Positions 10,724-64,000 of a stretch of 64,000 nucleotides of DNA are shown piece after piece. The stretch is taken from the NCBI RefSeq assembly GCF_004799685.1, contig NZ_CP031312.1, positions 62,001-126,000 of the forward strand, in the 5' to 3' direction. Positions within the stretch are counted from its first letter, which is position 1, and every line of letters starts with the position of its first letter. A program made the translations under genes and the position numbers. The notes beneath the pieces were generated by a model. That model did no database searches. It saw nothing but the letters and a program-made list of their open reading frames with translations, and was not told the origin of the DNA. Source of the stretch: Halobellus limi. Lineage in GTDB: Archaea; Halobacteriota; Halobacteria; Halobacteriales; Haloferacaceae.

Positions 10724-12286
10724 TTACGCCTCGGTTGGAGCCGCGATCACGTATATCCGGTGGACTGTGACGTCGGTGGGGTCGAGTTGCTTTCGCGCGC
10801 GCTGCTTGAACTGCTCGCGGAAGATCTCCCGCTGGGACTCGCTCTGCAGGCGTTCGCAGTAGGCGTTCAGACTCGCCTCCGCGAAGTCGTCGACGATGGT
10901 GTCGGGGGCGGTGTCGTTGTCGTCTTTCATCCGGATGGGATCGAACCCGTGCCCCTCCAGTAAGTCCCCCATCTCGTCGGTGTTGTAGTAGATGAGATCC
11001 AGCGGCGGATTGAGGTTCTCGAAGTAGGCGTCGTAGTCGAAGTCGTCGAGCACCTCGACCGCGACCTGGTGGAGTTCCTTGTAGGTGCCCTCGTGACCCT
11101 GGTGGACGGCCAAGAGCCCGTCGGAGTCGATAAGCTTCCGGAGGTTGGCGTACGCCTCGTGTTGGCCCTCGACCCAGTGCATCGCCGCGTTCGAGAAGAT
11201 CAGGTCGTAGCGGCCGATCTCCTCGTCCGGGCAGTACTTCTCGATCTTCTCGTAGCTGTACTCGATGTCGAGGTGCTCGGGGCTGTGTTCGGTCCGGGCC
11301 TTCGCGATCGCCGATCGGGAGGAGTCGATCCCGACGACCGACGCGTCGGGGTACCGCTCGGCCAGTCGCTCGGTCACCTTGCCGGTGCCGCAGCCGACGT
11401 CGAGGATGTGCTCGGGGTCGAACTCCCGAGTCACCGTCGCCGACTCGATGAATCCGAGGAGTTGGACCGACTGCTGTTCCTGGATCGTCGAGTGCTCCTC
11501 GTAGCGGTCGGGGTTGCGGAACAGCGCCCGGTCGTCGTTGATCCGCTCCAGACAGGCGTTCGTGAAGTGGTTGAGAAGCGCCCCGTCCATGTAGCGCTCG
11601 TCCTGCGTGTACGCCTGCGTGAACGCGTTGAGCGCCTCCTCGTAGTTCTGGTTGGCGAACTCGCGCGTCCCCTCGTTGAACAGGTGGATGTACTTCTCGC
11701 TGAACTTCGTCGTATCGCAGAGGTGGAAGACGTCGAGGTTCCGGCGGATTCCCCGGAGGCTCTGATCGGGGATCCGCCGCCCGACGTAGCCGTCGGGGAG
11801 TTCGTGGACCGACGTCGAGTTGTACGTGGTCTCGTCGGCCAGGATCGAGGCGTCGTACTCCTTGCACAGCCCTTCGAGTCTGGCCGCGATGTTCACGCTG
11901 CGGCCGATGACGGTCGAATCGATGTCGGCGAGCGTGGTCTCGTTGACCGGGCCCGTCGCGATGCCGATACCGACGTTGACGGATCCGAACCGACGGTCCA
12001 TACCGTTCTGGTCGTTCGTGTGCCGGTGGATCTCCGTCGCCGCGTTCAGCGCGCTCTGACCGGGGGAATCGCCCCGAAAGACGGCCATAATCCCGTCGCC
12101 GACGACCTTGTCGATCACCCCGCTGTGTTTCTCGACCACGGTGCGGACGTGCCCGAAGAGCTCGTCGAGCATCTCGCTGATCTCGTCGTCGCCGTAGTTG
12201 TCCAAGAGAAGCGTGAAGTTCCGCACGTCGAGAAAGAGCACCGAGACGGGATCTCCCCCGTCGTCGGGCGGCGAGTCGGCAGTCAT
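10724..12286 (-). CDS. Class III (IIIb-type) nucleotide cyclase - TPR-like - SAM methyltransferase fusion
   Basis: A 520-residue protein with two catalytic domains. Residues about 12-190 are a class III cyclase homology domain: metal Asp20 in FLDVRNFT and Asp64 in VVGDGIMAVF, adenine-specifying Lys60 with Thr125 (TVIG, the class IIIb pair), and transition-state Asn132 and Arg136 in SVNIAARLEGL. Residues 203-249 are a TPR-like helical pair (FNEGTREFANQNYEEALNAF). Residues about 285-415 form a class I SAM methyltransferase with motif I ILDVGCGTG (294-302), an acidic strand-2 end in VVGIDSS, and DLIFSNAAMHWV, resembling trans-aconitate methyltransferase types. The C-terminus is helical. The start at 12286 is preferred because the longer frame has no conserved sequence. 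No membrane segment is seen. It would make cyclic AMP and methylate an unknown acceptor. Confidence 0.88.
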   Translation of the reverse strand: MTADSPPDDGGDPVSVLFLDVRNFTLLLDNYGDDEISEMLDELFGHVRTVVEKHSGVIDKVVGDGIMAVFRGDSPGQSALNAATEIHRHTNDQNGMDRRFGSVNVGIGIATGPVNETTLADIDSTVIGRSVNIAARLEGLCKEYDASILADETTYNSTSVHELPDGYVGRRIPDQSLRGIRRNLDVFHLCDTTKFSEKYIHLFNEGTREFANQNYEEALNAFTQAYTQDERYMDGALLNHFTNACLERINDDRALFRNPDRYEEHSTIQEQQSVQLLGFIESATVTREFDPEHILDVGCGTGKVTERLAERYPDASVVGIDSSRSAIAKARTEHSPEHLDIEYSYEKIEKYCPDEEIGRYDLIFSNAAMHWVEGQHEAYANLRKLIDSDGLLAVHQGHEGTYKELHQVAVEVLDDFDYDAYFENLNPPLDLIYYNTDEMGDLLEGHGFDPIRMKDDNDTAPDTIVDDFAEASLNAYCERLQSESQREIFREQFKQRARKQLDPTDVTVHRIYVIAAPTEA

Positions 12287-60574: not shown

Positions 60575-61612
60575 CTACGAACTCCCGGACTCCCGGGCGT
60601 CGACCGCCCGCCTGACGGCGTCGAGCGGGAGCGCTTCGACGGCGGTCCCGTCTCCGCTCACAGTCGTCTCCGCTCGGGTGAGCGAGTTGTAGATCGCCTC
60701 CTCGGTGGCTTCGACGGCCGCCCTGAAAAGCGGCGTGAGCTCCCCGTCGGCGAACTCCTCGCCGCGGTCGTTGGCGAACCCGATCGCGAAGTCGCCGCTG
60801 CCGTGGTGGGCGATGCCCCCGACGCGGCCGAGTCCGAGTCCCGTCCGCTGCACCAACCGGCCCAGTTGGCGCGACGACAGCGCGGCGTCGGTACCGACGA
60901 GCATCATGATCGAGCCACCCGCCGAGGAGGCCTCGGTCGACCCGTCGACGTACCGATCGACGTGGAGCCCGTCGATCCGCAGATCCGCTGGTTTCCCCGT
61001 GTTCGTCAGGACGAGCGCCCCGACGACGTGTCCGTCGACGCGGCGTGAGGCGGTCCCGATTCCGGCCTTCCACCCGAAGCCGGTCGTTCCGGTCCCGGCA
61101 CCAACACACCCCTCCCGGGTGTTCGACGTCGACGCCGCCTCGAAGGCGTCATCGACGTGCACCGACGTGACGTGGCGCCCCCTGATGTCGTTGAGGACGC
61201 CGTCGTTGCACTCCCCGACGACGGGGTTGACGGACGTGGCGGACGCCTCACTATCCAGCACACGGCCCGCGATCTCGTCGGCGACGCCCCACACGTCGAG
61301 CGTGTTGGTCAGCCCGATCGGCGTCTCGATCCGGCCGAGTTCGTCGACCTGCGGGAGGCCGACGGACTTGCCGTACCCGTTCAGGACGTGCGTCGCGCCC
61401 GTGACCGGCGCGTCGTACACGTTCCGGTCGATCGCGGGATCGATCACCGTCACGCCGGTGCGGAGACAGGGTTCGTCGTCGGGACCGCCGCGACGGACGG
61501 TCCGGTGTCCGACGGCGACGCCGGGGACGTCCGTCAGCGCGTTTTCCCCGCCGGTCGGCAGTCGTCCGGGGTCGATTCCGAGGTCTCGCACGCGTGCTCG
61601 GGTTCCACTCAC
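60575..61612 (-). CDS. P1 family peptidase (DmpA/L-aminopeptidase-like)
   Basis: A 345-residue N-terminal-nucleophile-type hydrolase of the DmpA/BapA (P1, S58) family, which process themselves and cleave aminoacyl or beta-peptide bonds. Family segments are LTDVPGVAVGHRT near 26-38, THVLNGYGKSVGLPQ, EIAGRVL, GCVGAGTGTTGFGWKAGIG and AGGSIMMLVGTDAALSSRQL, the last with the probable autoprocessing Ser. The gene converges with the kinase gene and is divergent from the membrane-protein gene at 61797. Substrate unknown. Confidence 0.9.
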   Translation of the reverse strand: MSGTRARVRDLGIDPGRLPTGGENALTDVPGVAVGHRTVRRGGPDDEPCLRTGVTVIDPAIDRNVYDAPVTGATHVLNGYGKSVGLPQVDELGRIETPIGLTNTLDVWGVADEIAGRVLDSEASATSVNPVVGECNDGVLNDIRGRHVTSVHVDDAFEAASTSNTREGCVGAGTGTTGFGWKAGIGTASRRVDGHVVGALVLTNTGKPADLRIDGLHVDRYVDGSTEASSAGGSIMMLVGTDAALSSRQLGRLVQRTGLGLGRVGGIAHHGSGDFAIGFANDRGEEFADGELTPLFRAAVEATEEAIYNSLTRAETTVSGDGTAVEALPLDAVRRAVDARESGSS

Positions 61613-63484: not shown

Positions 63485-64000
63485 ATGACACTGAATCCGA
63501 CGGTCGTCGTGGGGGTAGGGGAAGCAGGTGTCAAGATGACTTCCCAGGTCTACGAGGAGTTACTGGAGATGCACGACGTCGACGAGACGACGTCTTCGCC
63601 CGACTTCCTCGACGACTTCCTGTTCATCACGATCGACACTCGCGAACAGGACCTCGACCGGTTCGCGAGAGAAGAGTTTCACGACATTCTCTTAGAGCCG
63701 CAAAGCAGCGTCTGGGAGAAGAACAAAAAGGAATTCAGTTACATCCACGACGGAATCGACGACCTCGACCCCGCGGGGGGCGCCTCGCGCCAGCGTCCGA
63801 CGGCGCGGTTCTACATCGACAACGCCAGGAACTTCGACGACCTCTACTCGGAGCTGCAGACGGTCATACACACCTTCGCGGACAACGTCGCCGGCAACCC
63901 GAACCTCTGGATTATGAACTCCTACGGGGGCGGGACGGGGAGCGGTGCGTTCCCGCTTCTGACGGCGATCTTAGACGAAATCGCCGGCCGCCACGACAAG
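63485..64000 (+). CDS. Tubulin/FtsZ-superfamily protein, cut by window end
   Basis: The first 172 residues of a tubulin-like protein. The T1-type Gly loop VVVGVGEAGVKM is at 7-18 and the diagnostic T4 signature GGGTGSG is at 138-144, preceded by LWIMNSY. The middle has the strand FLFITIDTREQDLDRF. This differs from FtsZ and CetZ in its long insertions and resembles the less-studied tubulin-like proteins found with membrane or VWA partners. It would bind GTP and possibly polymerise. The start ATG at 63485 begins MTLNPTVVV. The rest of the gene is to the right of the window, so length and C-terminal domains are unknown. Confidence 0.85.
   Translation, partial: MTLNPTVVVGVGEAGVKMTSQVYEELLEMHDVDETTSSPDFLDDFLFITIDTREQDLDRFAREEFHDILLEPQSSVWEKNKKEFSYIHDGIDDLDPAGGASRQRPTARFYIDNARNFDDLYSELQTVIHTFADNVAGNPNLWIMNSYGGGTGSGAFPLLTAILDEIAGRHDK

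Follow-up and report, generated by a model that had tools for sequence, protein, structure and literature searches.

The fusion gene and its product

The window considered here, i.e., the whole stretch of 64,000 nucleotides of Halobellus limi DNA that was analysed, carries on its minus strand a frame of 520 codons opened by an ATG (12286..10724), in which a nucleotide cyclase and a methyltransferase are encoded as one protein; genes for an acetyltransferase, a phosphoesterase, a peptidase and a small membrane protein lie in the same window (Table 1).

Table 1 Positions in the window of the fusion gene, its domains and the associated genes
Feature	Position	Strand	Remarks
Calcineurin-type metallophosphoesterase, 255 aa	9377..10144	minus	Candidate cyclic-nucleotide phosphodiesterase; 25 bp beyond the GNAT gene
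GNAT acetyltransferase, 183 aa	10170..10721	minus	Start codon 2 bp after the fusion stop
Fusion protein P0001, 520 aa	10724..12286	minus	Class III nucleotide cyclase, TPR-like linker and class I SAM methyltransferase
Methyltransferase domain, aa 259-520	10727..11512	minus	Motif I LDVGCGTG (295-302), Asp321, 'SNAAMHWV' motif
TPR-like helical linker, aa about 193-258	11513..11710	minus	Sub-cut-off TPR_2 match and predicted helices
Cyclase domain, aa 12-192	11711..12253	minus	Metal Asp20/Asp64; base-contacting Lys60, Asp123, Thr125; catalytic Asn132/Arg136
Peptidase family S58 (DmpA-like) gene	60575..61612	minus	Beside the membrane-protein gene
3-TM membrane protein, 209 aa	61797..62426	plus	Family restricted to the nine fusion genomes; candidate receptor/effector

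The frame and its two catalytic domains, first proposed from the sequence in a first-pass annotation, proved to be real, as both give Pfam matches above cut-off: PF00211 (Guanylate_cyc) at residues 12-143 (E 3.2e-11, 43.6 bits vs a cut-off of 21.9) and Methyltransf_12/25 at residues 294-392 (E about 1e-17), with PF08242 scoring 65.2 bits against a cut-off of 30, as expected of a class I SAM methyltransferase. The motif I ILDVGCGTG named by that annotation is present at residues 294-302, but the TPR-like pair that it placed between the domains held only in part: an AlphaFold2 model does predict a pair of helices at 197-211 and 215-228, while TPR_2 matches residues 202-230 below its cut-off (E 0.019). 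The same model, built on an alignment of ten homologues (mean pLDDT 76), matched CyaB, OaPAC and CyaC in Foldseek searches with its first half, and 3ccf, JHAMT and trans-aconitate methyltransferase with its second. Comparison of the window copy with its two closest relatives gave dN/dS values of 0.05-0.27 in both catalytic domains, i.e., purifying selection, and the linker, at 0.00-0.04 among close relatives, had the lowest values of the three parts. Purifying selection on both catalytic domains, together with a model that matches solved cyclases and methyltransferases, excludes a chance origin of the fusion.

The cyclase domain

The site residues D20, K60, D64, D123, T125, N132 and R136 are invariant in all ten fusion homologues, on an alignment from which the integrity of the active site was judged. 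The two metal aspartates (D20, D64) and the catalytic Asn/Arg (N132, R136) are those of a class III cyclase (PF00211), and K60 with T125 forms the base-contacting Lys/Thr pair of class IIIb, a pair that is indecisive by itself since it also occurs in haloarchaeal PycCs. The six positions singled out earlier (all of the above except D123) were correctly numbered and are identical in 10/10 full-length homologues; we looked for relatives that had lost them, and the set held throughout. In the solved photoactivated cyclase bPAC, K197, T267 and R278 are substrate and catalytic residues (PMC8522238).

Among solved structures, a profile search of the PDB with the fusion cyclase found CyaB first (3r5g, 1e-23), then OaPAC (3e-22) and bPAC (about 1e-20), the match to PycC (7r65) being far weaker at 4.5e-11, and the fusion model aligned to CyaB 3r5g with a Foldseek E of 6e-13 and a TMt of 0.78. 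As the family profile is thus nearest to adenylate cyclases, cAMP made from ATP would be the likeliest product. The Lys/Thr pair, which had been taken as the mark of class IIIb, is indeed invariant in the fusion, but alone it is no mark of an adenylate cyclase in haloarchaea, because the six haloarchaeal Pycsar cyclases that we aligned keep the Lys in 6/6 and the Thr in 5/6 cases. They differ elsewhere: the position of D123 is R in all six, and R136 is mostly lost too. A tree of 24 cyclase domains, whose only PycC rows are six haloarchaeal ones (bacterial PycC clades A-E are absent from it), unites the fusion cyclases in a clade of their own (support 91/89), separated from the haloarchaeal PycCs by a 100/100 branch. 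On account of this separate clade and the different base-site residues we rejected the fusion cyclase as a PycC; PADLOC PycC models do match it (best E 1.5e-16), as is expected for related class III cyclases.

The fusion shares its fold and its metal, base-contacting and transition-state residues with class IIIb-type cyclases such as CyaC, CyaB, bPAC, OaPAC and soluble AC (ADCY10). However, those enzymes bear PAS, GAF, BLUF, CHASE or AAA-TPR regulators, whereas the fusion bears a C-terminal SAM methyltransferase and, unlike them, comes from haloarchaea together with dedicated partner genes. To judge by its intact catalytic set, the protein appears to be what had been proposed, a soluble, IIIb-like class III cyclase of a haloarchaeon that is joined to a SAM methyltransferase.

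Distribution of the fusion

A search for the same domain order in a sample of 391 Halobacteria genomes, one per species, showed that the fusion is not unique to Halobellus limi: it is present at full length in nine genomes (G000, G348, G217, G295, G333, G313, G033, G183 and G094, with two copies in G033) from six genera and five families, with homologues 29-95% identical over their length. Class III cyclases of any kind occur in only 17 of the 391 genomes, nine with the fusion and eight with stand-alone enzymes, and the fusion is the only one in the genome of the window. Outside Halobacteria it was not found in 375 genomes of the phylum, which gave methyltransferase matches only, nor was it found on plasmids at 80% coverage. 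Matches to class III cyclases in IMG/VR contigs (L097-L109) were set aside for their different architecture; these are CHASE2-like transmembrane proteins, about 595 aa long, in which K, D, S, N and R occupy the active-site positions, and the contigs may be truly viral or binned wrongly.

The cyclase tree cuts across families, e.g., the cyclase of G295 (family f3) is 68% identical to that of Halobellus (f1) but 37% to that of G183, also of f3. Together with the patchy spread this suggests horizontal transfer, and such a family-crossing distribution fits an accessory, transferable module. Two members, the second copy of G033 and the copy of G094, carry N-terminal TFIIB repeats (PF00382). In these paralogues (L038:12283-14523 and L040:8512-10779) the cyclin repeats of a basal transcription factor (TFB) are coupled to a cyclase, an unusual pairing. 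The G033 copies are also flanked by ADP-ribosylglycohydrolase-like genes, one confirmed by PF03747 (L038:10436-11497) and one by sequence resemblance only (L038:16432-17340).

Adjacent phosphoesterase and acetyltransferase genes

The genes downstream of the fusion were searched for in 78 genomes, i.e., the nine with the fusion and 69 for comparison (gene calls in loci other than the window are ORF choices made in the present analysis). The phosphoesterase subfamily adjoins the fusion in 8/9 genomes and the GNAT subfamily in 7/9, and both are absent from the 69 genomes without it; phosphoesterases beside the fusion scored over 90 bits per piece at 41-100% identity, whereas genomes lacking the fusion gave at best 88 bits at 30%. 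Both genes are missing in G183, and in G333 (G333:C1:2699352-2700078) the phosphoesterase runs over two overlapping frames beside an intact fusion and GNAT gene, perhaps by decay (a frameshift) or by sequencing error.

The metal-site motifs of the phosphoesterase (D11 and H13 of DxH, G45-D46 of GD, GNHD 79-82, HH 148-149 and GHLH 194-197) are invariant in seven sequences and are all shared with the class III (calcineurin-type) cAMP phosphodiesterases CpdA and Rv0805. Unlike these, however, the candidate lies far under the NCBIfam cut-off for CpdA (E 6.5e-5, 22.6 bits vs 225). Calcineurin-type phosphoesterases are promiscuous, which counts against assigning the messenger as its substrate; in Sinorhizobium, SpdA is encoded beside a cAMP system and yet has a preference for 2',3'-cyclic nucleotides (PMC4222275).

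In Halobellus the membrane-protein gene lies 48-50 kb from the fusion, with similar spacing in G217 and G348, and the two are close neighbours elsewhere. At locus L035 the order is membrane-protein gene, S58 peptidase, fusion, GNAT and phosphoesterase; set against this, Halobellus seems to have kept one such block but in two parts, about 48 kb apart. Equivalents of the S58 peptidase stand between the membrane-protein and fusion genes in both L035 and L036, and the peptidase is probably a passenger, kept as a trace of the original gene order. The intervening part of the window (12300-60500) suggests that DNA was inserted or rearranged in the ancestry of Halobellus. Directly downstream of the membrane-protein gene and of a gene for a 259-aa predicted secreted or membrane protein, the window ends in the start of a tubulin/FtsZ-like GTPase gene (63485-64000; Tubulin and Tubulin_2 domains).

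The membrane protein

The membrane family comprises proteins of 200-230 aa with three predicted TM segments. A profile search of the 391 genomes placed it in 9/9 genomes with the fusion and 0/382 of the others (Fisher 2e-18, phylogeny ignored), and in five of the six genera the sampled species without the fusion are also without the membrane protein. No match to it was found in viral contigs or plasmids, or outside Halobacteria in a 227-genome sample of the phylum. Its distances correlate with those of the cyclase at r = 0.97 when the single G033 membrane protein, which adjoins the TFIIB-type copy of the fusion and has its closest relative in G094 (62%), is paired with that copy, and at 0.88 with the other, though such a correlation is also expected from simple co-inheritance.

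No ligand-binding domain could be recognised in the protein, and confidence in the model is low for the soluble loop (pLDDT under 50 at 105-157). Foldseek searches with the model gave nothing below E 0.1, only common helical bundles, and the top VIA-align Z, 11.6, is a value for which caution is advised with helical bundles; the fold comparison was uninformative. Because no canonical cNMP-binding domain (PF00027) was found over cut-off in any fusion genome, the membrane protein is the leading receptor candidate.

The first-pass annotation had described a lone enzyme centred on methylation. The enzyme is real, but the neighbour and co-occurrence searches led us to reject it as the whole story, and the evidence points instead to a multi-gene module. 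They also bear on the idea that the fusion serves as a global cAMP synthase for the ordinary cAMP signalling of haloarchaea, with its neighbours as bystanders: there are reports of cAMP from Haloferax volcanii and Halobacterium salinarum (PMC6741144, PMC1906763), but the fusion is absent from 382 of the 391 genomes, a CYTH (class IV type) protein is present in 29/29 genomes tested, and the fusion is accompanied by its neighbour genes across six genera, so that this role strikes us as quite improbable.

The methyltransferase domain

The methyltransferase is closest to BioC, trans-aconitate and juvenile-hormone-acid methyltransferases, with PDB 3ccf as the best fold match. Its best NCBIfam match is BioC (E 2e-26), at 93.4 bits well below the cut-off of 184.95, and it is below the Tam cut-off as well. 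Motif I, Asp321 and MHW are shared with the BioC/Tam/JHAMT group, but here the domain sits behind a cyclase, and its motifs are partly lost in the TFIIB-fused members. Since that group methylates small carboxylates, a carboxylate is a possible methyl acceptor. Among fusion homologues G298, G302 and D321 are invariant; G300 is lost in the G094 copy, in which motif I reads GCEEG, and both TFIIB-fused members have lost the 'MHW' motif, while their partner genes persist in G033 and G094. An invariant cyclase set beside decaying methyltransferase motifs suggests that the methyltransferase may be accessory or SAM-sensing, and we take the cyclase as the core, and the SAM-binding domain as an input or tuning part, with modest confidence.

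The SAM-AMP messenger of type III CRISPR acts on a membrane effector. By analogy, a chain that holds both activities and has a dedicated phosphoesterase and a membrane partner recalls such signalling, which joins ATP and SAM (PMC10600005), and the methyltransferase might then act on the cyclase product or a linked nucleotide to give a modified, previously unknown messenger. We give this very little credence, as the domain is nearest to carboxyl O-methyltransferases of small acids and its motifs decay in the TFIIB-fused members even though the partners are kept there.

Comparison with Pycsar

The other eight genomes with a class III cyclase encode a stand-alone enzyme beside a PycTM-type protein, i.e., canonical Pycsar (PycC and PycTM; L068-L075), the PycTM neighbour in G267 and G236 having been recognised with a haloarchaeal PycTM profile. 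In G338 two different class III cyclases stand back to back. Pycsar is therefore found in the same archaeal class as the fusion and has in common with it a class III cyclase and a small 3-TM protein, even in the layout of the latter (a soluble loop between the second and third TM helices). The fusion module differs in its additional methyltransferase, phosphoesterase and GNAT, in its cyclase clade, and in the size of its membrane protein (about 200-230 aa vs about 160 aa for PycTM), whose homology to PycTM is unproven.

These resemblances raise the prospect of an antiviral system acting by abortive infection, in which infection would trigger cyclic-nucleotide synthesis and the 3-TM protein would damage the membrane. 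That the sample's eight remaining class III cyclase loci are without exception PycC and PycTM pairs speaks for it, as do the signs of horizontal transfer and the weak PycTM matches of individual members of the membrane family (PADLOC E 0.0096 and 0.019). The family as a whole, however, gives nothing over cut-off with the PF18967/PycTM models, hhalign against PycTM is not significant (probability 5%, P 0.0075), and in the reciprocal HMM search the family reaches only E 1.5, yet is the best non-PycTM match among 3389 ORFs. The cyclase is no PycC by residues or tree, and PADLOC found nothing specific to defence among 20 proteins flanking four fusion loci (L037-L040), only a generic HerA-like ATPase among housekeeping-type neighbours. 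A dedicated phosphoesterase is, to our knowledge, no usual Pycsar component, which also counts against this reading. We regard abortive infection of the Pycsar kind as a doubtful, though realistic, alternative.

A putative cyclic-nucleotide signalling module

The same membrane protein in every fusion genome, and nearly always the same phosphoesterase, look like a self-contained signalling module. We therefore consider it probable, if only moderately so, that the fusion is the synthase of a dedicated haloarchaeal cyclic-nucleotide module with its own phosphodiesterase and membrane receptor/effector. The class IIIb-like cyclase domain, as a dimer, would make a 3',5'-cyclic nucleotide, most likely cAMP, and this messenger would act on the 3-TM protein at the membrane, whereas the adjacent phosphoesterase would hydrolyse it and reset the system. 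The TPR-like linker and the methyltransferase domain would form the input or tuning side of the cyclase, which might respond to SAM or to a bound partner, or else methylate a protein or a small carboxylate, and so couple the state of the cell to cyclase output; the GNAT acetyltransferase may have a part in the module too. We think it unlikely, but worth stating, that this is an archaeal immune or stress system built on a SAM-coupled cyclase, whose cyclic nucleotide, perhaps methylated, opens or activates a new family of 3-TM effectors, with its own phosphodiesterase as off-switch and a TFIIB-repeat input in some lineages.

As the first-pass annotation had supposed, no description of a cyclase-methyltransferase fusion was found in the open literature searched, and the fusion with its partners looks like an undescribed module. 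Cyclic mononucleotide signalling is barely characterised in archaea; cAMP has been measured in haloarchaea, where its roles are unknown and no phosphodiesterase has been identified in Halobacterium salinarum (PMC1906763, PMC6741144). With a synthase, a putative off-switch and a putative membrane receptor, the fusion locus offers a compact candidate module in an archaeal class that is amenable to genetics, where it can be put to the test. Class III cyclase loci are paired with a small 3-TM protein, PycTM or the new family, in 17/17 genomes, so that control of membrane proteins by cyclic nucleotides can be tested as a theme common to haloarchaea.
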